A stretch of DNA of 35,606 nt from a virus: the IMG/VR virus record IMGVR_UViG_3300028654_000042, positions 1-35,606 of that record, one strand, 5' to 3'. The position numbers and the translations under genes are program-made. Below are positions 2,869 to 35,606 of this stretch, piece by piece; positions within the stretch are counted from its first letter, which is position 1; each line of letters opens with the position of its first letter. Below the pieces are notes generated by a model. The model was not told the origin of the DNA. It searched no databases and saw nothing but the letters and a program-made list of their open reading frames with translations.

Positions 2869-3188
2869 GGCTTGGCGATGATCTCGAGGACGGCGGCGCG
2901 CTGAAGCGAGTAGCAGGTGCGCTCGCCGGCGGCATCGCGCTCACATCCCAGCCCTTCATGGTCGTGGCAGTCGTCAGGCAGCCCCCTCACGGCCTCCGCG
3001 ATCTCGGCGTTACGGGCGGTGACGGCCTTCGTGATCTGGTCCCATGTCGCGGTGTGAACGGTGGGCGTGTAGAACCCGTAGGCATCGGGCTGGCCCCAAT
3101 CGACGGCCTCGACCCCCAACTGCTCGAATAGCACGTCGGAGAGCCAGACCTTGTATTGCGCCGCTCGCTCAACTCGCTCGGTCGTCAT
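2865..3188 (-). CDS. 107-residue hypothetical protein
   Basis: ATG at 3188 overlaps the previous stop (ATGA). The N-terminal half is helical and acidic; the C-terminal part has three Cys and two His (CHDHEGLGC, then TCYSLQRA) followed by AAVLEIIAKP, an ending often seen in short phage early proteins. A small metal site is possible. Family not recognised. Confidence 0.65.
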   Translation of the reverse strand: MTTERVERAAQYKVWLSDVLFEQLGVEAVDWGQPDAYGFYTPTVHTATWDQITKAVTARNAEIAEAVRGLPDDCHDHEGLGCERDAAGERTCYSLQRAAVLEIIAKP

Positions 3189-3631: not shown

Positions 3632-4179
3632 GAAATCGTCACCTCCTGAAGTCCCTGCGAGAGCGGCGCGAGCCGCGCGAAGTCGGAGCGGTCAAGATCG
3701 ATGAGCCGCGAGCCGTAGCACTGGCACCAGTCGCCCAACTGCGTGCGAACTGAGACACCGTTGGCCGTGACAGTCACCACAGTTCCGCGCCAGCCAGAGC
3801 CAAGCGCAGCCCTCAGCGCGGGGCCTGCGGCGGCTTGGCCGGGGAAGTAGGCATACCAACTCGCGAGTCCCGCCACTTGAGCGGTACCCACGTCACCCAC
3901 TTGCCGACCCAACCGCAATCCCAGCATCGGCGTCGGTACCACTTCGGGTCGCTGTCGGGGCGCCACTCTTGCTGTTGGAAGCGGGTCGCGCCGCACTTCG
4001 GGCACGACGGTTGCTGTTGCACTGCGCACCTCCGTAAACGCCCCCTGCGGCAACGCCGAGTCGTGCCAGGCCTCGACGCCGACCGTCTGCGCCGCCATGA
4101 TCAGCCCCGCCGCCACGATGAGCGCGGCCCACAGGATGCCGGCGAAGAGGAGGCCGTAGGACCAGGCGCGGGGAGTCAT
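3625..4179 (-). CDS. Membrane-anchored RlpA-like double-psi beta-barrel protein
   Basis: The 184-residue protein starts MTPRAWSYG at an ATGA overlap. Residues about 8-30 are a membrane or signal segment (LLFAGILWAALIVAAGL). A linker follows to about residue 100, then a C-terminal domain with ASWYAYFPGQ, VVTVTANG, LGDWCQCYGSRLIDLD and FARLAPLSQG, the pattern of RlpA/3D-type double-psi barrels, which act on or bind peptidoglycan outside the cell. The catalytic Asp is plausibly in the GDWCQC or LIDLD strand. In a phage it could help wall passage, lysis or superinfection control. The linker is overprinted by another gene (3813-4022). Confidence 0.7.
   Translation of the reverse strand: MTPRAWSYGLLFAGILWAALIVAAGLIMAAQTVGVEAWHDSALPQGAFTEVRSATATVVPEVRRDPLPTARVAPRQRPEVVPTPMLGLRLGRQVGDVGTAQVAGLASWYAYFPGQAAAGPALRAALGSGWRGTVVTVTANGVSVRTQLGDWCQCYGSRLIDLDRSDFARLAPLSQGLQEVTISW
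3813..4022 (-). CDS. Zinc-ribbon protein overprinted inside the RlpA-like gene
   Basis: In another frame of the same strand a 69-residue protein starts with GTG at 4022, behind a strong GGAGGT site 6 bases upstream. It contains CPKCG at residues 7-11 and CWDCGW at about residues 33-38, a two-knuckle zinc ribbon with 21 residues between the pairs, plus many Trp and Lys. Its extent matches the low-complexity linker of the RlpA-like protein. The motif quality and ribosome site make this a real gene in my judgement, an out-of-frame overlap of 210 bases. Function unknown; zinc ribbons of this kind often bind nucleic acid. Confidence 0.65.
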   Translation of the reverse strand: MQQQPSCPKCGATRFQQQEWRPDSDPKWYRRRCWDCGWVGKWVTWVPLKWRDSRVGMPTSPAKPPQAPR

Positions 4180-4745
4180 GCCCGCATCTCCGGCCGGACA
4201 AACTTCCAACCGGCGGCGCTATAGACGTCCGTCTCCTCCGGCGTCGGGATGACCTCGCAGACGTAGGAGCCACACCCAAGCGAGCCGCGGTGGAGTTGCC
4301 CCCCGGAGACGTGAAGGTCGCGGCGGCGGAGGTCCGTGACGAACCGATGCGAGTAGTCCGCTGGCCCGGTGCGAATGAGGTAGATCAGGCCGAACGTATC
4401 GGCCGTCGCTGAGAACAGGTCAAGCTGGAGTCCGGAGGTCGGCTCGATCAGCTTGGAATACCGATCGCCACGCTTCGGGTCGGTCGGGTGATTGGCGAGG
4501 ATGCCGTCAGCGATCAGAGCGTCAATGCGCGCGCTCAGCAGGTTGGCCTCGCGGCTCTCCCACATGCCCTCGGGCACCGTCTCGATCAGAGGCACCGCCA
4601 CGATCTCGATGTCGCCCACGTCGGCCCGGCCACGCCGAACGCTCCCGGCGATCTCGATGCGCGTGGTGGCAGGCGAAAGCCGCCAGAGGATGCCGAGGGC
4701 GATCGAGCGGGCACCGGCCAACGGAACGCGAGCGCCAGCGCTCAC
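4176..4745 (-). CDS. PolX-type nucleotidyltransferase
   Basis: A 189-residue protein with the DNA polymerase beta superfamily signature: GSVRRG at residues 34-39, then GDIEIV at 44-49 (two metal-binding acidics D45 and E47), and the third acidic strand QLDLF with D109, followed by YLIRTGPADYSHRF, similar to the TGS..HN region of PolX enzymes. The family transfers nucleotides to DNA ends in gap repair or end joining. The protein is far shorter than full PolX enzymes and lacks the HhH-containing N-terminal 8-kDa and fingers regions, so it is a minimal palm. E in place of the second Asp is notable but tolerated in the superfamily. Confidence 0.75.
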   Translation of the reverse strand: MSAGARVPLAGARSIALGILWRLSPATTRIEIAGSVRRGRADVGDIEIVAVPLIETVPEGMWESREANLLSARIDALIADGILANHPTDPKRGDRYSKLIEPTSGLQLDLFSATADTFGLIYLIRTGPADYSHRFVTDLRRRDLHVSGGQLHRGSLGCGSYVCEVIPTPEETDVYSAAGWKFVRPEMRA

Positions 4746-6811: not shown

Positions 6812-7135
6812 TCACGTCGCCACCTGCAATGCCCGACGCAACTGGTTTGCCCGCCTCCAGGTGGCCCGCCGCGCCGCGATGCGCTCCGCTTCCGTGGCGT
6901 AGCCCTGCCAATACTGGCTCGGCGCAAGGTGCTCCGGCTCCTCTCCGGGATAGGTCCCGTCGCAGCGTTTCTCGGCGCGCATGGCCTCCGCGAAGGCGCG
7001 GTTGCAATCGATGCAGGGCGACGTGGGGACCGAGGTGGAGTGCGGGCCGCCGATCCTCGAGGCACGCTCGGCCTGCCACCAGAGCCGATCCGTCTCGGCG
7101 TCCATGCAGGCAGGGTGTTCGGGGCCGAGTCTCAT
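6812..7135 (-). CDS. 107-residue protein with a CxxC pair
   Basis: ATG at 7135 overlaps the helicase-methyltransferase stop (ATGA). The protein has PCIDCNRAF near residue 40 and a further Cys in EKRCDGTYPGEE; the C-terminal half is basic and helical (AERIAARRATWRRANQLRRA). It could be a small zinc-binding DNA-contact protein. Family not recognised. An 84-base gap without a gene separates it from the next gene. Confidence 0.6.
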   Translation of the reverse strand: MRLGPEHPACMDAETDRLWWQAERASRIGGPHSTSVPTSPCIDCNRAFAEAMRAEKRCDGTYPGEEPEHLAPSQYWQGYATEAERIAARRATWRRANQLRRALQVAT

Positions 7136-9327
7136 CCCACCATGTCCAGCCCGAGCGTCAGCACGTTGTCCGCGCGCTCGATGTTCCGGCAAGCCGCCTC
7201 GAAATATGACCGCTTCAGCTCGCAGCCGATCGCCCGGCGACCATGCTGCACCGCGACGTAGCCCGTGGTGCCGATGCCCATGAAGGGGTCGAGCACGAGT
7301 TCGCCGGGGTTAGACCAGAGCCGGACGCATCGCATGACCGTCTCGATCTGCAAGGCCGCGATGTGCCGTTCGTCCCGTTGCTCACGAGCCTCGGCGGCAT
7401 TCAGCGTCGCGGATTCGCGGATGCCGTACCAGATCGGCCGGGCCCACTCGATCCATTCGTCATTGCTGATCTGGTCGCCGAGGATCGGGACGGCGTTCTC
7501 GCCCGGCGCCCGGAAGACGATGATGAAGTCCGCGAACGCCGGCCGGAGCCACGACCGGTCCCGGTCCTTCTGGACGAACAGGAGCCCCTTGGCCTTTGTG
7601 CGGATCGCCTGCGCTTGGGGGTCCTTGTCAATCGTGACCTCGCCGTGGAAGACGAACCCCTGCCCGATGAACGCCCGGATCACGTCGCCTCGGAAGTCAT
7701 TGAGCCCCGTCACTCCGTCGTGAGCTACCGACGTGGCGACCTGCTGGACGTGGACGGCGACGTTGCGGCCCGGCTTCATGACCCGCTTGATCTGCGCGAT
7801 CAGGAAGCCGAAGTGCGTCCAGAACTCATCCGGCCGGTTATTGCCGATGTCCCGCTCGCTCGGCGAGTAGGTGAACAGGCTCATGAACGGCGGCGAGAAG
7901 AGCGTCAGGTCAACGGACTTGTCGGGGACCTCGGCCAGTCGCTCCACGCTGTCCCCGAGCATCATCGTCCAGGCGGGGCGCTTGACGGTCGCCTCGGTGT
8001 ACTCCCATTCATCCGGCTTCCCGTCGAGTTCGCCGCGCTCGAACGCCGCGATATGCTCGATCAACTTCTCCTGCATCCGGGTCGCCTCTTCCTCTTTTCG
8101 CATGACGTTCTCGAATATCTCAGCCTCGGCATCGGACAGGACGATGTGGGCGCGCACGCTCTCCGTCTGCCCGAAACGCCAGCAACGCCGGATGCTCTGG
8201 TAGTACGCCTCCCACGAGTCTGAGAGCCCGACGAATGCCATCTGATGGGCGTTCTGAAGGTTCATGCCGAACCCGGCGATCCGCGGCTTCGTGACAAGCA
8301 CGCGATGCGCGCCGTCTTGGAACGCCTCGATCGCGGTCGCCTTCGCCTCGGGCGTCTGGTTGCCTTCCACGAGGATCGAGCCGGGGATCGCGTCGCGGAG
8401 CGCATAACCCTCGTCATTGAGCCCATGCCAGACGATCCACTGGCCGGGCGTCGCATTGACCAGCGCGGCGGCGTGCTGGACGCGCGGCGTGAGCGTCTTT
8501 CGCCGTACCGCGCTGCGATCCTTGATCCCGCCGAGCCCACCGAAGAAGAGTTGCCCATCGGGCACGTAGTCGGCCGCGATGAACTCCGGCTCAATCACGA
8601 GCTCCGGCAGGATGAACCCGTCATCCTCGTATCCGAGGTCAGACGGGCGGCGGATGCTCATGCCCCAGGACGCGAGCCATCGAAAGAAGGCCTCTTCGGC
8701 GTGGCCCTTCAGCCGCCAGCCGTCCTTGCCGCTGTCGAGTGAGCCGTGGACGAAGAACGCCGACAGCATCTCGTGGTGCGGCATGATCCCGAGGAACTCG
8801 GAATGGTTGCCGATCTCCGCGATGTCATTCGGGGCCGGGGTCGCGGTCGCGCAGAGCCGGTAGGGCGTCTCCGCGAACATCTCCGTGAGCTTCTGGCGTG
8901 TCTTGCCGTCCAGCGACTTGAGGATGCTCGACTCGTCCAGCACGACGCACGGGAATGCGGCGGGATCGAAATGCTCGACCATCTCGTAGTTCGTGATCGA
9001 GAGCGGGCCGTCCACTTCGGACTGGTCGCGGACGTACTTGACCGTGAGACCGATCTTCCGGCCCTCGCGGACCGTCTGCCGTGCCACGGAGAGCGGCGCG
9101 ATGATGAGGGTCGGCTTGCCGATCAGCCGGGCCCATTCGAGCTGCATGAACGTCTTGCCCAACCCCGTGTCCGCGAAGAGCGCGGCGCGGCCCTTGCGAA
9201 CCGCCCACCGCACGAGGTCCCGCTGAAACGGGAACAGGAGCGGGTGTACGTCATCCCGGTGGACTTCCGGGCCGAACGGCGCGACGACGTGTCGCTTCGA
9301 TGCGAGGAACGTGGCGTAGTCGCTCAC
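7132..9327 (-). CDS. Fusion of SNF2/SF2 helicase and DNA methyltransferase
   Basis: 731 residues from a GTG that overlaps the previous stop. The N-terminal half is an SF2 ATPase of SNF2 type: Walker A DTGLGKT (53-59), motif II DESS (131-134, in place of DEAH), motif III TATP (161-164) and motif VI SIRRCWRFGQT (378-388). The C-terminal half is an amino-methyltransferase of the N4-cytosine/N6-adenine kind: catalytic SPPF (478-481) and SAM-binding DPFMGIGTT (680-688), an order typical of beta-class enzymes. One protein could therefore track along phage DNA and methylate it, protecting against host restriction. No nuclease domain is visible. Confidence 0.85.
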   Translation of the reverse strand: MSDYATFLASKRHVVAPFGPEVHRDDVHPLLFPFQRDLVRWAVRKGRAALFADTGLGKTFMQLEWARLIGKPTLIIAPLSVARQTVREGRKIGLTVKYVRDQSEVDGPLSITNYEMVEHFDPAAFPCVVLDESSILKSLDGKTRQKLTEMFAETPYRLCATATPAPNDIAEIGNHSEFLGIMPHHEMLSAFFVHGSLDSGKDGWRLKGHAEEAFFRWLASWGMSIRRPSDLGYEDDGFILPELVIEPEFIAADYVPDGQLFFGGLGGIKDRSAVRRKTLTPRVQHAAALVNATPGQWIVWHGLNDEGYALRDAIPGSILVEGNQTPEAKATAIEAFQDGAHRVLVTKPRIAGFGMNLQNAHQMAFVGLSDSWEAYYQSIRRCWRFGQTESVRAHIVLSDAEAEIFENVMRKEEEATRMQEKLIEHIAAFERGELDGKPDEWEYTEATVKRPAWTMMLGDSVERLAEVPDKSVDLTLFSPPFMSLFTYSPSERDIGNNRPDEFWTHFGFLIAQIKRVMKPGRNVAVHVQQVATSVAHDGVTGLNDFRGDVIRAFIGQGFVFHGEVTIDKDPQAQAIRTKAKGLLFVQKDRDRSWLRPAFADFIIVFRAPGENAVPILGDQISNDEWIEWARPIWYGIRESATLNAAEAREQRDERHIAALQIETVMRCVRLWSNPGELVLDPFMGIGTTGYVAVQHGRRAIGCELKRSYFEAACRNIERADNVLTLGLDMVG

Positions 9328-9542
9328 AGCCCAAGCCCCTGCTGATCGTCGGCCCGGTACGCGATCTCCACCGACCACTTCCGGGAGTTTGACATTGCAT
9401 AGTCGCCCATTTCTTCGGTGGGCCGCACTCTCGTGACGCGCTCCAGCCGTATCCCCGGCTCCGCCGCAGCCCAGTCCCGCGCCATCTGCTCTGCCTCCGT
9501 CGCTGTCTTCGCGGCGAAGGTTAGGGTCAGGAGTTCAGTCAT
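9324..9542 (-). CDS. 72-residue hypothetical protein
   Basis: Coupled by ATGA to the gene before and by GTGA to the helicase-methyltransferase after it. The protein is a short beta-alpha-beta-like chain (MTELLTLTFAAKTATEAEQMARDW ... RKWSVEIAYRAD) with an Ala/Glu-rich helix. A small ferredoxin-like fold is possible. No family recognised. Confidence 0.6.
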   Translation of the reverse strand: MTELLTLTFAAKTATEAEQMARDWAAAEPGIRLERVTRVRPTEEMGDYAMSNSRKWSVEIAYRADDQQGLGL

Positions 9543-21206: not shown

Positions 21207-22453
21207 GCGGCTACCTCCACGGGGACCGCTGCGGCGATCAGGTCACGGAACTGGACGGCCTTGTCGGGCCACGAGAAGTTGGCGCGGACGTGGGCTGGCC
21301 CCTTGGCGCCGAGTACCGTGCGGAGCGTGGCGTCGATCACCAGTCGCTCCACGGCCTGCCCGAACTTGCGCTCGTCGGCCCACGCCCAGAAGTGCGAGTA
21401 GGGGTTGTCCACGCGCGTGAAGAGCGGCACGAGCAGCCCGGCCGGGCCGATCACCTCCGGCACCGCCGAGTAGTCCACGCCCACGGCCGGCAAGCCGCAC
21501 GCCAGCGCCTCGGCGATGCAGAGGCCGAAGCCCTCCGACGAGTTGGACACGTAGATGTCGGCCGCGTTGTAGAGCGCGTTGAGCAGGCGCCGGTCGAGGC
21601 CGCCGTAGGTGTCGTGGAAGCCGGTCGAGAAGAGCTGCCGCGAAAGGCGCCCGTACTTGCTCACCTCGTCGGACAGGTCACCGCCTTGGTCCCGCGTGCC
21701 GCAGTGCCAGATGAAATCCACGTTCGGATGCGCCGCGAGCACCGGCGCGAGCGAACGGAAGAGCGCGCCGTACATCTTGCGCGGCATGTGGCGGTCCGTG
21801 CGCAGGAGCGTGATGCGCGTCGGGTCGAGGCCAAAGAGCGCCTTGCAGTCGGCCTTGTTGTGCAGCTTGCGCTGCCCGTCGCTCGTCGGCACGTAGATCG
21901 GCCGCTCCGGGCTCACCTTCCAGAAGGCGTCGGGGTTGACGCCGTGGTAGATCACGGGCGGGCGGGCGATGCCGATCTTGGCGATCTCGTCGGCACCGAA
22001 CCGCGACATGGCGACGGGGCGGATCTTCTGCCAGAGCGCGGCCCACGCGGGCGGCAGGCCGTCACCCTCGACCGGCACGTAGTGGAAGATCGGGAAGCCG
22101 TCGGGGATGAAGCCGGGCACCGGACTCATCTTCAGGCTCGCCACGTCGCCGAGGATGATGCCCGCCTCCGGCCGCCAGCCGTCATCGAAGAGCGCGCCCG
22201 TGAACATGCCCTCCAACCGGGCGACGGTGCGTGCCACAACTTCGGCGTCGGCGTGGACGCCGAGCCAGCCGTTCGGGTTCTCGAGCACGGCGGTGCGGCC
22301 GAAGAACGGCTCCTCGAGTTCGCCTTCCGGCTGCTCATTCAGCGACATGAACCGCACGTCTTCGCCGAGCGCCAGCAGCGCCGTGCCCAAGTCCTTCGTC
22401 ACGGTTCCGAAGCCGGTGCCCGCGCTGTCCCCCAAGAACAGGATGCGGCTCAC
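21203..22453 (-). CDS. Glycosyltransferase, GT4 / GT-B fold
   Basis: 416 residues from a GTG with GGAGGG six bases upstream. N-terminal Rossmann start SRILFLGDSAGTGFGTVTKD; C-terminal donor-binding motif SEGFGLCIAEALACGLPAVG with the E-x7-E pair, followed by PEVIGPAGLLVPL, the GT4 fingerprint. Such enzymes move a sugar from a nucleotide donor. With three other transferases it likely makes a glycan on phage DNA, capsid or the host surface; which one is unknown. Confidence 0.85.
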   Translation of the reverse strand: MSRILFLGDSAGTGFGTVTKDLGTALLALGEDVRFMSLNEQPEGELEEPFFGRTAVLENPNGWLGVHADAEVVARTVARLEGMFTGALFDDGWRPEAGIILGDVASLKMSPVPGFIPDGFPIFHYVPVEGDGLPPAWAALWQKIRPVAMSRFGADEIAKIGIARPPVIYHGVNPDAFWKVSPERPIYVPTSDGQRKLHNKADCKALFGLDPTRITLLRTDRHMPRKMYGALFRSLAPVLAAHPNVDFIWHCGTRDQGGDLSDEVSKYGRLSRQLFSTGFHDTYGGLDRRLLNALYNAADIYVSNSSEGFGLCIAEALACGLPAVGVDYSAVPEVIGPAGLLVPLFTRVDNPYSHFWAWADERKFGQAVERLVIDATLRTVLGAKGPAHVRANFSWPDKAVQFRDLIAAAVPVEVAA

Positions 22454-23954: not shown

Positions 23955-24262
23955 GGCTGCCCACTCGATCTGCGAGCCAAGCGATCCTCGCCGCGAGCCG
24001 GAACGCCGTGGACGCCCGTGTGGCCCCGCAGGTACGGGCACCGCGTCTGGTGGTTGCAGCGCGGGAGGTCGGGCGGCAGCGTCGTCCAGCCGAGCGCCAC
24101 GGTCGCCTCGATCGCACTGTGAACGTCCAGCATCGCGTAGAGCTCATGGAGCTCATTGCGCACGGTCTGGACGCCGACGCCGAGATAGAACGCGGCGGCC
24201 TTGATCGAGCCCGTCTTGCAGTAGGCGAGCATCACGTCAAGTTGGCGCTTTGTCGGCGTCAC
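23951..24262 (-). CDS. GerE-type helix-turn-helix with C-x5-C-x5-H-x3-H site
   Basis: 103 residues. LAYCKTGSIKAAAFYLGVGV... is a LuxR/GerE-type HTH; CNHQTRCPYLRGHTGVH is C-x5-C-x5-H-x3-H, the same spacing as in the paralogue at 2566-2868. It is embedded among glycosyltransferase genes and read by ATGA coupling with the GT2 gene upstream and the GT-B candidate downstream. It may regulate this cluster or the phage in general. Confidence 0.75.
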   Translation of the reverse strand: MTPTKRQLDVMLAYCKTGSIKAAAFYLGVGVQTVRNELHELYAMLDVHSAIEATVALGWTTLPPDLPRCNHQTRCPYLRGHTGVHGVPARGEDRLARRSSGQP

Positions 24263-24900
24263 GCCACCGCTCCCGAGTGCCCGCGCTCACCGATGCCGAC
24301 GTACACCTCGTCAATGCGGGCATCATTCATGCGAGAGTGGATCAGGAACGCGCCGAGCGGCGCCTTGGGCAATAGCGGCGTGCCGCGCGTGTGCGCCTCG
24401 GGCATCGCTTCGAGCATCACCTGCTCGTGCACTGGCTTATACCAGAGCCCGGCGCGTCGCTGAAACAGGCGGCAGTGCCAGTGCTCTTCCCACTCCTCGC
24501 CCTGTCGCCCGTCAAAGAAGTTCTTGGTGAAGAACAGGTAGCCGCGCGGCGCCATGTAGCGCGTGCCCTGCCAGTCCACGTCGCTCTGCGTGGCGCTGTC
24601 CACCGTGCGGATGAAGTCGAGCATCGCGGCGGTGGGCATCTCGTCAGGATCGAGATGGAGCACCCAGTCGCCGTGGCAGTGTGGCAGCGCGGCGTTGCGC
24701 GCCGTGGCGAAGTCATCGACCCAGCGGAACGGGACCAGCGTCACGTCCCGCCAGGCCGACATCGTGTCGGCCGCCTCCACCGCCGTCCTGTCATCGACCA
24801 CGATCACGAACTCCGACACGACCGGACGCAGGTACTCCACGAGGAGCGCCATTCGGTCCAATGGCGGCTTCAGGACCAACATCGCCAGCGACACACTCAT
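24259..24900 (-). CDS. Glycosyltransferase, GT2 family
   Basis: 213 residues from ATG 24900; a GTG at 24912 is possible. FVIVVDDRTAV is the nucleotide-binding strand, DDFATARNAALPHCHGDWVLHLDPDE carries the RN-A-L and L-D-x-D-E motifs of SPBc2-type GT2 enzymes, and HWHCRLFQRRAGLWYKPVHEQV is the acceptor side. First gene of the glycosyltransferase operon, starting just beyond the divergent region shared with the RAMP-like gene. Confidence 0.85.
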   Translation of the reverse strand: MSVSLAMLVLKPPLDRMALLVEYLRPVVSEFVIVVDDRTAVEAADTMSAWRDVTLVPFRWVDDFATARNAALPHCHGDWVLHLDPDEMPTAAMLDFIRTVDSATQSDVDWQGTRYMAPRGYLFFTKNFFDGRQGEEWEEHWHCRLFQRRAGLWYKPVHEQVMLEAMPEAHTRGTPLLPKAPLGAFLIHSRMNDARIDEVYVGIGERGHSGAVA

Positions 24901-24934
24901 GCTTGACACCACGTGCTAGAGTCTGACCAACGGT

Positions 24935-24978
24935 GGTTCAGTCGCCGGTTTTTCATGCCCCGGTACGTCGACTGAACC
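24935..24978. repeat. Inverted pair of GGTTCAGTCG in the divergent region
   Basis: GGTTCAGTCG at 24935-24944 and its exact reverse complement CGACTGAACC at 24969-24978. A third, direct, copy of nine bases (GGTTCAGTC) is at 25030-25038, right before the RAMP-like start codon. Three copies of the same 9-mer in about 105 bases suggest operator sites or a folding RNA leader. Confidence 0.75.
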
Positions 24979-24991
24979 GACGTTCGGGGCA
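24956..24991. promoter_or_regulatory. 13-bp hairpin that competes with the GGTTCAGTC pairing
   Basis: Arms TGCCCCG and ACGTCG (24956-24962, 24965-24970) pair with CGACGT and CGGGGCA (24978-24983, 24985-24991), leaving a 7-base loop ACTGAAC and one small internal loop. The loop and the 3' arm of the inner helix are the same bases that pair with GGTTCAGTCG in the alternative fold. No T-run follows, so it is not a standard terminator. Confidence 0.6.
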
Positions 24992-25026
24992 CCTCCCGTT
25001 TTAGGCTAGGCCAACCGGGGCGCCAC

Positions 25027-25040
25027 AGAGGTTCAGTCTC
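25027..25040 (+). promoter_or_regulatory. Ribosome site overlapped by GGTTCAGTC
   Basis: AGAGG (25027-25031) sits nine bases before the ATG at 25041. Bases 25030-25038 are GGTTCAGTC, complementary to the GACTGAACC segment at 24970-24978. Pairing would hide the ribosome site, so translation control by the leader is possible. Confidence 0.5.
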
Positions 25041-25805
25041 ATGGCAACCGCAAAACTGCCGAAGATCACGATCGGACGGTCGTGGCTCAGGCGAGTCGTC
25101 CCAGAGGGCTACGCTCGGGCGACACTCACCCTCACCGGAACGTCGCCGCTCCTGATGAACTCGGCTGAGGCCGATCGGGACGGTCCACTGTTCCGCGCGT
25201 TCACGCTCCTGTCCCAGAAGCAGCGCAAGACCCAGGACGACGACGCCCGGCTGCGCGCGCTCGAATGGGAGCTCCGCATCTACCTCGACGCCGACCTCGG
25301 GCCGTACATCCCCGGCCGGAACGTCAAGGCCGTGCTTCAGGAGGCGGCCGGCAAGTTCAAGAAGGGCGCCACGGTCAACCGTTCCCTCATCACCGTGGAC
25401 TACCGCATCCCGCTCGTCTATGACGGGCCACGGGACCAAGAGGGACTCTGGGAGGCGGGATACCGCTACTCCACGATGGTCAAGAACGCCGGGTTCAACG
25501 GAGGGCGCGTCATGCGCTGCCGCCCGATGTTCCCCGAATGGGCGATCGTCGCTGACATCGCCTTTGACCCCGAAGAGATTGATCCCGACACGCTCGCGCT
25601 CATCGTGGAGCGCGCACAGCGGTACGGGCTGGGCGACTACCGTCCTGAGTTCGGCGCCTTCAGCGCGAAGCTCGACCTGTCCGACACGAAGCGCGCCAGT
25701 CGGCCCGCGATGGGGACGAAGGGGCGCAACGGGCACGAGGAAGCCTCCCACGAGGCGTTCAAGGCCCGCATCATGGACCCTGACGATCTGGTCGCCACGA
25801 AGTAG
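25041..25805 (+). CDS. RAMP/Cas7-like protein, only plus-strand gene
   Basis: 254 residues. No named family is certain. Visible features: an opening strand ATLTLTGTSPLLMNS (27-41) as in RAMP ferredoxin-like folds; YIPGRNVKAVLQEAAG (89-104), like the IPGSSLKG-type loop and helix of Cas7/Csm3; GGRVMRCRPMFPEW (154-167); ID-x-x-x-LALIVERAQ (180-193) and the Gly-rich YGLGDYRPEFGAF (195-207), like the closing strand of Cas7 proteins. Highly charged C-terminal tail. No catalytic cluster is seen, so an RNA-binding, filament-type protein is the likely role. It is divergent from the glycosyltransferases and convergent with the capsid operon and is followed at once by the repeat-bearing RNA. Confidence 0.55.
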   Translation: MATAKLPKITIGRSWLRRVVPEGYARATLTLTGTSPLLMNSAEADRDGPLFRAFTLLSQKQRKTQDDDARLRALEWELRIYLDADLGPYIPGRNVKAVLQEAAGKFKKGATVNRSLITVDYRIPLVYDGPRDQEGLWEAGYRYSTMVKNAGFNGGRVMRCRPMFPEWAIVADIAFDPEEIDPDTLALIVERAQRYGLGDYRPEFGAFSAKLDLSDTKRASRPAMGTKGRNGHEEASHEAFKARIMDPDDLVATK

Positions 25806-25974
25806 AGCGGTTGGTCCTGGCAACGCTCGATTGGGCGGGGCTGGGTAGGGCTCAGCCACGGCAGCGCAAGTCGTGCTTCGGAATGGTTGGGCTCGGCCGG
25901 GTACGTTGAGGCGTCGCATGACGGGGTCAGGCGAGACGCGTTCTGGTCGGGTCAGGTAGGGCTTGGGCGGTCTC
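25805..25974 (+). repeat. Array 1: 34 degenerate 5-base units, G-B-Y-N-N
   Basis: Looking at every fifth base from 25805 to 25970, G is present at 30 of 34 (exceptions 25815, 25830, 25865, 25915). The second base is mostly G, C or T and the third is a pyrimidine in 28 of 34. Bases four and five are free. No unit family repeats exactly, so this is a motif-periodic sequence, not a tandem duplication. Confidence 0.85.
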
Positions 25975-26024
25975 ACGACCGACGAGAGGGCCATCACGAC
26001 CTTCTCGCCGTCCGTGAGGACGGC
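25968..26024 (+). ncRNA. Core of three consecutive hairpins
   Basis: Hairpin I: CGGTC-TCAC-GACCG (25968-25981), 5 bp. Hairpin II: CGAGAGGG/CCTTCTCG (25983-25990 / 26000-26007), 8 bp with one G-U and a 9-base loop. Hairpin III: GCCGTCC-GTGA-GGACGGC (26007-26024), 7 bp perfect with a GNRA-type tetraloop. They are contiguous (G26007 can serve either II or III). Confidence 0.75.
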
Positions 26025-26166
26025 AGTGGCGAGGCTACGCGCGGCATGTTCTGGCGTGGCAAGGCGAGTCCCGTTCCGGTCTGGCGAGGTAGGTCTAGGC
26101 ACGGTTCCCAGTGGCACGTCGCGGAGGTCGAGTCGAGTCTGGGTTCGGCAGTGCAAGGCGTGCGGA
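26023..26166 (+). repeat. Array 2: degenerate 5-base units, G-K-Y-N-N, with a phase slip
   Basis: From 26023 to 26123 every fifth base is G at 19 of 21; the base after is G at 14 and T at 5 of 21, and the next is a pyrimidine at 18 of 21. At about 26123-26127 the frame shifts by one base (unit of four), and from 26127 to 26162 G is again at 7 of 8. The same consensus as array 1 but in another phase relative to it. Confidence 0.85.
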
Positions 26167-26219
26167 GGCCGGATAGCAGCAGCGTGTTGGCTGTCACGTC
26201 CGGCCTCCTTTCACTTTCC
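26164..26219 (+). terminator. Probable intrinsic terminator closing the RAMP-like/RNA unit
   Basis: Ten-base stem GGAGGCCGGA/TCCGGCCTCC (26164-26173 and 26199-26208), with a 25-base loop that can form a small inner stem, followed by TTTCACTTT. It stands between two convergent units, the plus-strand cassette and the capsid operon, but the T-rich tail is on the plus side only. Confidence 0.6.
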
Positions 26220-26221
26220 GG

Positions 26222-26401
26222 CTACTTCTCGGGAGCTTCGGACTGCTTCGGGGTGCCGGTCTCGCTCGCGGGATCGACGCCCTTGACGCCCGTCTGGTCC
26301 GTCTTCGGCGGGTTGGGGTTGGCCGTGCCGGGGAGATCGCTCGTCGGGAACTTGACGCCCGTCGTGGTCTTCACGGTGCCGGTCGGCTGCTTGTCTGCCA
26401 T
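26222..26401 (-). CDS. 59-residue Lys/Pro/Thr-rich hypothetical protein
   Basis: Sixty codons from ATG 26401 to TAG 26222, reading MADKQPTGTVKTTTGVKFPT and then NPNPPKTDQTGVKG to EAPEK. Low-complexity, polar and positively charged, disordered-looking. It follows the major capsid gene and is the last gene of the head operon. A capsid decoration or scaffolding-type peptide is possible; no family recognised. Ribosome site is weak. Confidence 0.6.
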   Translation of the reverse strand: MADKQPTGTVKTTTGVKFPTSDLPGTANPNPPKTDQTGVKGVDPASETGTPKQSEAPEK

Positions 26402-33028: not shown

Positions 33029-33429
33029 TCGGTCACCGTGAAGGTGAGCGCCGACACGGAGACGTAGGCGCCCTGCACGATCGTCGTGGCGGCCATGTTG
33101 ATGTTATTGCCGCTCGTCAGGCCCACCGAGCCGTCGAAGAGCGCCGTGATGCCGTCGCTCTCGAAGACGCGGAACCACTGCGCCGTGCCGCCCGCCACCG
33201 CTTGTGCGGACGTGATCGCGGCGGCCGTGATGACGCCAGCGTTCGGCGCACCGAAGGCGGACGCGGCGAGGGTCAGCGTAGCAAGCAGCGTCGAGCCGGA
33301 GGCGTCACCGTTCGCGTTGGCCGGTTGCGTGCCCTGGTAGATCGCCAGCGTCCCGCTGTTCGCCAGCGTCCCGATCGCAACGGCGGAGGCGTTGGCGCTG
33401 GTATCGGAGAGGTGGGGGTTCAGCGCCAT
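33025..33429 (-). CDS. 134-residue putative virion decoration protein
   Basis: Starts MALNPHLSDTSANASAVAI at a TGATG overlap with the portal fusion. Contains LAIYQGTQPANANGD and LLATLTLAASAFGAPNAG, then FRVFESDGITALFDGSVG; this matches a recurrent phage structural-protein pattern (IYxGxxPAxAxxxxGxLLAxL) found near head genes. Role in capsid or head decoration is inferred. Confidence 0.65.
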   Translation of the reverse strand: MALNPHLSDTSANASAVAIGTLANSGTLAIYQGTQPANANGDASGSTLLATLTLAASAFGAPNAGVITAAAITSAQAVAGGTAQWFRVFESDGITALFDGSVGLTSGNNINMAATTIVQGAYVSVSALTFTVTE

Positions 33430-35606
33430 CAGACCTCCTCGTCTCTCACTTCGATGATATTGCCGTCGGCGTCACGCTTGACGACCCTGCGCATCGCCTT
33501 CACTTCGGGCGGCGGCACGTTGACGATCGGCGCGGCCACGTTGACCACGGGCGCCGGGACGTGGATGTCGGGCGGGGTGTAGTTGACGGTGATCGGCTGG
33601 CTGGCCTGCGCCTTAACGGCGTCCGCGAACTTGCCGACCATGCCGACGAGCTCCTGCCGGCTCGCCGTCTCATCCTCCTGGATCGCTCGCAGGAACTCAG
33701 CGGCCTTGTCTGCGCGCACGGACTCCCTCACGATCCCGGCCTTGCCGTAGTCCTCTGCCGAGCCGATCACGGGCAGAAAGTCGCGGGTGCAGTTGGGGTG
33801 GCCCAGCTCGTCCGGCGCGTCATCGATCGGCACGGTCACGTCGGCCCACGGCGCGCAGATGTCATCCTCGTCGCCGTCGAGCACCTGGATCATCTCGATG
33901 CCGTTCTCGCCGTAGGAGCCGAGCGCGGCGGCGTTGTAGGCCGTGCCGAGCTCCGTCCGGGCGATCAACTCGGCGCGGTATTCATCGAAGCCGGACGCCG
34001 CCTCGATGCTGTCGCCCAGCTCGGCCGGGCTCATGCCCTTCTCGATGCCGTCCGCGACGAGCTTCTGGATCATGTCCTTGGTCGTGGCGTTGATCCCCGT
34101 CACCCGCGCGGCGCCCTTCGTGAGCACCGTCTGGACGGCGCCAGCGGAGTACAGGCCGAGCGATCCTGCCGCCTGCGTCGCGGCGATGTCAGCGAGGTCC
34201 GTCAGGACGCCCGTGACGACGCCCGGCTTCGGCTTGACTGGACCGGCCTTGCGGCCGGCGAGCACCGTTGCCTGGATGTGCGCGTCCACCTGCTCGGCGG
34301 CGCCCAAGAGCGACGGGCGCAGCGCGGCGGTCATCGCGTCGTCCCACTTGGACGATGGCGGCCACCAGATCGAGGCGTCCTTCGGGTGGCTGGCGATCGT
34401 ATCGAAGTTGGTCCGCACGCGGCTCACGATGTCCCGCTTCTGCTGATCGAGCACGAGCGAGACGGCGGCACGGAGTTGCGGCGATACGCGGGCCGTCAGG
34501 TTGTCTTTCAGCGTGCGCATGGACGCCTGGTATCCCGCGAGGTGGACCGGCGCGGCCTTGCCGGGTCCGCTGGGCGGCGTCGGGATCGTGTCGTCAACAG
34601 CGATGATGGCCGTCGTCCAGTCGGGGTCGCCCTCGCCCACGTAAGCGGGGATCTTCTTCAGCCCGGCGTTCTCCGCGGCCTTGGCGCCGTGCCAGCCATC
34701 GATCGGCTCATAACCGGGCTTGCCGATGACCTTCGTGTGGATGAGCACGATCGGCGGGATCGGGGCGCCGATGTTCAGCGCCGCCTCCTTGCCGGCCACG
34801 ATGCTTGGGTTGCGTGCGATCGGACGGCGCTCGGCGTTGACCTTCTTCATGGGAAAGCCGGGATCGAACTTCCAGTCGCCCTTGCCCACGAGTGCGAGGT
34901 CGGCGGGCTTCCACTGCTTGCGGAGCTGCCCTAGGACGGCCTCAGTGACATCGGGGCCTTTCGCCTTGACCGCAGCGCCAGTGACCGGCGCGGGCGGCGC
35001 TGAGCCCACCTGTGCGGCGCTGGGGGCCATCTTGACGCTGCCCGACTCCTCGCTCCAGTTGGGCGCCGTGACGGACTGCGCCTGGAACGTCGGCGCGGCC
35101 ATCGGCGGCTTCCCGATCGGCATCATGTTGATGCCCATCCAGATCTCCTGCCCGATCGGCTGGCCCGTCGGCCCGATCACCTTGTCGTCAAGCGGAGGCT
35201 GCCCGATCAGGTCGCGGCGCTCGTCATTCGTGAGCGCGATGAACTGCGCCTTCTGCACCTTGTCATAGCGCGGCGAGTCGTCATCGAACTCGGGCTCTTC
35301 GAGCACCAGCGTCGGCGCCCAGCCCATGTACGGCTCCCAGCGATTGAGCAGCGGCTGGATGCCCTCGGCCAGCTCCTCGAGGCGCGGATGGACGGCGTTC
35401 TGCCAGAGCGCCGCCTCGTCGTACTTGCGCACGTCGCCGCTGTTCAGTCCGGCTGCCGTGCTCCCGCCGACCTGCGAGAGCGGCACGCCCCACAGCGCCA
35501 GCAGGTCGTCGCGGTTCTTGGTCATGAGGTCGATGACCTGCATCTCGGCCATCGTCGCGGCGGTGCGAATGAAGTCCACCGGCGCTCGGGTCACCTGGAG
35601 GCGCCG
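33429..35606 (-). CDS. Portal protein fused to ParB-like and Mu F-like domains (partial, 5' end off window)
   Basis: The reading frame stays open to the right edge; the visible part (721 residues from an internal GTG at 35594) is the portal C terminus at about 1-160 (MTKNRDDLLALWGVPLSQVG, ALTNDERRDLIGQPPLDD), then a linker, then a ParB/Srx-like domain about 240-325 (PPIVLIHTKVIGKPGYEPIDGWHGAKAA), and a Mu F-like head-morphogenesis domain about 360-610 (ARTELGTAYNAAALGSYGENG, DICAPW, HPNCTRDFLPVI). The tail end is Pro/Val-rich. Portal forms the DNA-entry ring; Mu F domains act in head assembly and often carry an extra effector. Confidence 0.75.
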   Translation of the reverse strand, partial: RRLQVTRAPVDFIRTAATMAEMQVIDLMTKNRDDLLALWGVPLSQVGGSTAAGLNSGDVRKYDEAALWQNAVHPRLEELAEGIQPLLNRWEPYMGWAPTLVLEEPEFDDDSPRYDKVQKAQFIALTNDERRDLIGQPPLDDKVIGPTGQPIGQEIWMGINMMPIGKPPMAAPTFQAQSVTAPNWSEESGSVKMAPSAAQVGSAPPAPVTGAAVKAKGPDVTEAVLGQLRKQWKPADLALVGKGDWKFDPGFPMKKVNAERRPIARNPSIVAGKEAALNIGAPIPPIVLIHTKVIGKPGYEPIDGWHGAKAAENAGLKKIPAYVGEGDPDWTTAIIAVDDTIPTPPSGPGKAAPVHLAGYQASMRTLKDNLTARVSPQLRAAVSLVLDQQKRDIVSRVRTNFDTIASHPKDASIWWPPSSKWDDAMTAALRPSLLGAAEQVDAHIQATVLAGRKAGPVKPKPGVVTGVLTDLADIAATQAAGSLGLYSAGAVQTVLTKGAARVTGINATTKDMIQKLVADGIEKGMSPAELGDSIEAASGFDEYRAELIARTELGTAYNAAALGSYGENGIEMIQVLDGDEDDICAPWADVTVPIDDAPDELGHPNCTRDFLPVIGSAEDYGKAGIVRESVRADKAAEFLRAIQEDETASRQELVGMVGKFADAVKAQASQPITVNYTPPDIHVPAPVVNVAAPIVNVPPPEVKAMRRVVKRDADGNIIEVRDEEV

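Follow-up and report, generated by a model that had tools for sequence, protein, structure and literature searches.

What is a solitary plus-strand gene doing in a phage whose late genes lie on the minus strand, and what is the five-base-periodic, non-coding DNA of about 400 bases that directly follows it? We addressed this in a 35.6-kb phage record, analysed over its whole stretch of 35,606 nucleotides and referred to here as the window. We find that the locus is a VIPR system, that is, a member of a recently described class of RNA-guided systems related to CRISPR (PMC13142463, a preprint of April and June 2026). VIPR combines Vipr, a RAMP-like protein of ancestral type, with vrRNAs built of YNNGG units, about 9-16 tandem GGY/NN units to a vrRNA, each tract being followed by a structured 3' tail that does not vary; pairing to dsDNA is through the NN bases, with a skip of one target base in every unit (PMC13142463). 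A sequence-only reading of the window had come close to this in proposing a RAMP-like protein that reads RNA in five-base units, a dsDNA target being the part it did not propose. Its statement that it knew of no described system with such a layout is out of date, since our literature search returned one paper that describes one (PMC13142463). The idea of VIPR was published only months ago, and this locus is a natural example of it from outside the two studied clades and independent of them.

The vipr gene, its arrays and its leader

The features of the cassette and of the genes at its two edges are as follows.

24259-24912, minus strand: the window's own copy of a glycosyltransferase-like (GT) gene, directly upstream of vipr on the opposite strand, with a guide-homologous site at 24856-24885
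24913-25040, plus strand: vipr leader, with a TAGAGT -10-like box and the conserved TTTTTCATGCCCCG at 24949-24962
24935-24943, 24970-24978 and 25030-25038, plus strand: leader segments GGTTCAGTC, GACTGAACC and a second GGTTCAGTC, the last at the ribosome site
25041-25805, plus strand: vipr, encoding the 254-aa RAMP-like protein Vipr, with N- and C-terminal extensions
25809-25858, plus strand: guide tract 1 (vrRNA), about 9-10 imperfect GGYNN units; a 9-unit parse spans 25809-25853
25860-25969, plus strand: guide tract 2 (vrRNA), 22 GGYNN units, the first of which, GGCAGCGCAAGTCGTGC, resemble 26147-26163
25970-26027, plus strand: hairpin core between tracts 2 and 3, from fold prediction
26028-26107, plus strand: guide tract 3 (vrRNA), 16 GGYNN units; the ten-unit matched guide is 26038-26087
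26147-26163, plus strand: tail-like GGCAGTGCAAGGCGTGC, a near copy of 25860-25876
26164-26208, plus strand: long terminator-like stem closing the cassette, with a strong fold and a weak T tract
26222-26401, minus strand: small gene of 59 aa, at the other edge of the insertion

The list of open reading frames of the window gives vipr as the sole gene of the cassette. Its product falls into phrog_4652 (E 1e-41), relatives of which occur in Gordonia, Mycobacterium, Pseudomonas and Felix O1-like phages, and in a phmmer search it matches the solved Vipr of SUSP1 (PDB 36pp) with an E of 7.4e-21 over residues 29-211; against a family profile built from 42 relatives the same SUSP1 protein reaches 3.7e-59. 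An AlphaFold (AF2) model of the 254-residue protein (pLDDT 88) has as its best PDB matches in Foldseek the Cas7-type subunits of Csm, Cmr and type VII CRISPR complexes (probability 1.00), and by this model the protein folds like Cas7/Csm3. The suggestion from sequence alone that the gene encodes a RAMP-type protein is thus borne out by predicted structure and by homology to SUSP1 Vipr. Cas7_IIId matches the window protein at an E of 0.02 only, and a single-protein query against the viral contigs of IMG/VR gave no match; relatives were found with a profile alignment. The closest of these, locus L009, encodes a Vipr 75% identical to that of the window, and among the loci compared only these two share the extensions at both ends. 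The sequence-only reading had also called for a check on whether homologues of the gene always have such an array after them, and a GGYNN array does lie within 1.5 kb on the same strand in 69 of 80 IMG/VR relatives (on the opposite strand in 2 of 80) and is present in all seven named phages examined. It is because Vipr homology, the predicted Cas7-type fold and the arrays beside relatives come together that we assign the locus to VIPR.

That non-coding DNA with a five-base period directly follows the gene is confirmed by the power of G at period 5, which over 25809-25969 is 4.60, a value that none of 5,000 shuffles reaches; the highest among 7,058 other windows of the genome is 2.49. Over 26028-26107 it is 3.51 versus a maximum of 3.46. 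The two arrays perceived earlier therefore do have this period, but not a common phase, as 25809, 25860 and 26028 differ modulo 5; likewise the five-base unit stands, but it is GGY-NN rather than a unit with one marking G, and many units in the window keep only one of the two Gs. Single-G units are tolerated in the arrays of other phages as well. The hairpins that the arrays had been said to flank fold better than shuffles (25968-26045; z -2.8, 1/200), and the stem at the end is strong; its weak T tract makes it a likely terminator, not a certain one. The hairpin core belongs to no Rfam family, and a hammerhead or other known RNA was ruled out, Rfam having given no credible match. As candidates for a tail there are only separate hairpins and the 17-nt near-repeat at 26147-26163, which departs from 25860-25876 at two positions, both of them G positions, and whose role as a tail is uncertain. 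L009 likewise has no evident tail. Its array (L009:4730-5073), with 68 GGYNN units in a near-single run (16 + 52), is the longest among 88 loci; it has no tails and ends in a terminator hairpin.

In an alignment the leader of vipr is conserved between the window and L009. Three of its segments co-vary: where the window (24929-25040) has GGTTCAGTC, GACTGAACC and again GGTTCAGTC, L009 (3865-3970) has GTACTGGC, GCCAGTAC and again GTACTGGC, with TTTTTCATGCCCCG conserved in both. The three segments could pair in mutually exclusive ways at the ribosome site, and the leader looks like a switch over that site, suggesting a regulatory role.

We also note a second kind of element in the relatives, namely tRNA-like minihelices of about 41 nt that consist of an acceptor of about 6 bp, a linker of 10-11 nt and a T arm with a TTCGANT loop. 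Examples are L003:1651-1691, 2984-3024 and 3102-3142, L005:2235-2276, 3691-3732 and 3835-3875, L033:5235-5276, L034:5195-5236, L040:3868-3909 and L044:4631-4671, which share the strand of a VIPR array and mostly lie 2-9 nt from it; of the 26 minihelices in the 88 loci, 20 have an array no more than 60 nt away. Their appearance is that of RNase P/Z sites by which vrRNAs are set apart from one another. The main text of the VIPR preprint makes no mention of tRNA (PMC13142463).

Guide 3 and the glycosyltransferase-like gene of sibling phages

With the published 1-nt-skip code, the NN bases of the arrays were turned into gapped patterns and scanned against IMG/VR. The guide 3 pattern ATNCTNGTNAANGANCCNCCNCTNGA (nine units, 18 bases) has ten exact matches in ten contigs, where about one would be expected by chance for an 18-base pattern, as estimated from the size of the collection; other 18-base patterns from the window gave 0, 1 and 4. 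All ten matches read along the coding strand, the third codon position being the one skipped, and all ten are near the start of one GT gene family (MITLCMLVKDPPLDRL...). The name of this family, glycosyltransferase-like, comes from our own reading of the sequence and from its gene cluster, and no library match backs it. Five distinct sequences, differing at skipped bases, occur among the ten. The skip code, without tuning, predicts a target here, namely a late gene of sibling phages of which one guide reads five variants. Two of the contigs, G004 and G007, match ten units at 20 of 20 bases. Guides made by shuffling the units of guide 3 reach at best 15-18 of 20 (2.7 Mb, both strands), and a skip of 0 or 2 gives at most 15 of 20 in the set of sequences that holds the 20/20 matches. 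The predicted target comprises codons 5-14, approximately, of the GT gene, which follows closely on the capsid gene in related phages. The peptide encoded there, MLVKDPPLDR, is conserved in the family, so many members match as candidates for the natural target of guide 3. Among at least three guides, guide 3 is the only one with a convincing target.

The contigs hit by guide 3 come mostly from relatives of the window phage. A BLAST comparison covered G002, G003, G004, G006, G007, G008, G010 and G011, with hit contigs G005 and G009 left out; it also included G001, the contig of L009, as a VIPR carrier that is not a guide 3 match. With G001 counted, eight of the nine contigs compared share the capsid and other genes with the window. 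A homologue of the window's GT gene is found in all eight hit contigs compared (42-70% identity), and a homologue of its capsid gene, with other head or tail genes, in seven of the eight, the capsid being 67% identical to that of the window in G004 and 38-55% in the others. G003 shares only two glycosyltransferase-like genes with the window. The hit contigs are metagenomic and a joint host with this phage is not implied. None of the ten carries vipr, an absence that is weak since many are fragments, and none has a convincing match for window guides other than guide 3 or for any L009 guide. The capsid, GT and portal genes have no match in the named phages. The portal lies in a 721-aa frame that also holds MuF-like head morphogenesis domains (33429-35594, minus strand), and elsewhere in the window a DNA helicase and a DNA methyltransferase are united in a single gene of 748 aa (7132-9378, minus strand).

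The window carries its own copy of the targeted gene right beside the cassette. At 24856-24885 this copy agrees with guide 3 at 15 of 20 bases and thus has five mismatches; two codons there specify a differing amino acid, and two leucines are written TTG, which makes up 6% of Leu codons in other genes. These mismatches could be drift. In G004 only 18 nt, and no cassette, separate a homologue of the 59-aa gene from the GT gene behind it. The homologous pair that the cassette splits in the window thus adjoins in G004, which makes G004 an empty site. With the cassette missing from this site in a relative and the own copy altered, the locus lends itself to a direct test of self/non-self discrimination by VIPR.

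We favour, at a probability of about 0.85, the explanation that this is a VIPR cassette whose guide 3 is directed against the beginning of the GT gene of sibling phages and which blocks their late operon while the phage's own copy is spared. We infer expression, complex formation, DNA binding and repression from the VIPR preprint (PMC13142463). By homology to SUSP1, Vipr would load RNAs from the downstream GGYNN tracts to form a guided complex, plausibly with one subunit per five-base unit; the complex would find dsDNA through the NN bases, with one target base skipped per unit, and guide 3 would direct it to where the GT gene of a sibling phage begins. Bound there, Vipr would be a roadblock to transcription of the GT gene. 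As capsid, GT and tail genes seem to follow one another in a single late operon, much of the late region would go untranscribed as well, and a co-infecting or superinfecting sibling would be suppressed. With five mismatches in its own copy, the genome that carries the cassette should be spared. That the late operon is blocked in this polar way, and that the own copy is altered because this avoids self-targeting, are our own proposals. The most likely function is to block late-operon transcription in siblings and spare that of the carrier. More tentatively, and with somewhat less than even odds, the cassette may form a linked killer-and-immunity unit among siblings, as it occupies the interval next to the gene that it would attack in rivals and has a recoded, resistant copy of that gene beside it; because of this adjacency, recombinants that take up the cassette would also take up resistance. 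On this reading, wobble-blind guides directed at amino-acid motifs would be broad against siblings and safe for their own phage.

Other guides and other explanations

That the guides serve mainly against integrated prophages or other VIPRs, with the GT match secondary, is less likely than not. Read antisense with the skip code, guide 1 gives D/E-L-H-P-H-D-F/L-R/S-H, as in the tyrosine recombinase box, and its four IMG/VR matches all lie in that box, antisense and in frame. A guide of the L009 array reads A-H-R-L-R-H-T-F-A, and its 52-residue reading matches the integrase family only, and weakly (Pfam E 0.18). The box motif is seen twice versus 0.08 times in shuffled arrays, but it was picked after guide 1 had been seen, and in bacterial genomes the matches of guide 1 are near chance and mostly outside integrases. 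Guide 2 (units 25905-25969) reads D-V-I-G-H-E-A-L-R-Q-S-L-R, like the vap genes of L023 and L013, in which it finds its best match (positions 4639 and 4423, respectively; 20 of 26 bases), and it resembles a conserved vap stretch, DVIPHEALRESLR. This hints at targeting of VIPR by VIPR, yet guide 2 has no exact vap target. Assignments of guide 1 to integrases and of guide 2 to vap genes are accordingly weak. As to an exact target of any kind for guide 2, we rejected the candidates, as searches gave 0, 22 chance-like and 1 chance-like matches. Two further observations were also set aside, namely an excess of the 1-nt skip over all VIPR arrays (4 versus 0-1 at 18 of 20), which is weak and due in part to a codon effect, and a match of the L078 array to the window gene at 21899 (18 of 20), which is within chance.

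A VIPR remnant, in which the family is right and the decaying arrays leave the system inactive, is less probable still. One G is missing from several units, slips occur among the 22 units of tract 2, no vap gene adjoins, and phrog_5926 has no match in the record in a search run without a positive control; we note too that units less regular than those of SUSP1-type arrays may make for guides that are weaker or partly decayed. Against decay, vipr is intact and conserved with L009, the leader co-varies, guide 3 matches present-day sequences at every one of its 20 bases, and other phages' arrays also have single-G units. We give very little credence to the notion that DNA binding is not guided by the RNA and that the latter instead acts on RNA or has a structural or packaging role. 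Nothing specific speaks for it beyond a structured hairpin core and leader, whereas the match to the target obeys a 1-nt skip on the wobble base, with other skips faring worse, and the VIPR of SUSP1 binds dsDNA (PMC13142463). Least credible of all is chance, that is, G-rich non-coding DNA beside an unrelated gene. This GC-rich genome does yield GGYNN scores of up to 25/30 by chance, 25 being the ceiling in 60 runs of a Markov model fitted to the whole window; the best 10-unit score is 27/30, though, found twice and next to a Vipr homologue, and the arrays in 69 of 80 relatives and the codon-phased target refute chance.

Relation to VIPR and CRISPR-Cas

The window protein is included in phrog_4652, and phrog_5926 is a neighbour gene in relatives; both are without a function in PHROGs v4. 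Unlike the phrog_5926-bearing relatives, neither the window nor L009 has a plus-strand gene adjoining vipr. The class 1 CRISPR-Cas RAMPs (Cas7/Csm3) share with the window protein a predicted RAMP fold and a proposed oligomer on guide RNA, but the window has no CRISPR array, Cas1/Cas2 or Cas10, and no CRISPR-like repeats are among the tandem repeats found in it. The units also differ, class 1 systems having six-base spacing on a contiguous spacer and the window five-base units.

The closest known system is VIPR itself (PMC13142463, SUSP1 36pp), with which the locus has in common a Vipr-family protein, adjoining GGY/NN arrays on the same strand, a phage as carrier, a target that appears to be read by skipping 1 nt, the wobble base, and, apparently, other phages as the aim. 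It differs in that its Vipr is extended at both termini, its units are less regular than those of SUSP1-type arrays, it has a hairpin core and not a clear repeated tail, and the cassette is inserted beside the phage's own altered copy of the target gene. No vap gene adjoins it; a vap accessory gene is typical of VIPR, not strictly defining, and as six vaps are named for seven types (PMC13142463), a vap-less type may already be known. The VIPR kind is thus already known, and what is added here is a further member without an adjacent vap gene and with a probable target in sibling phages.
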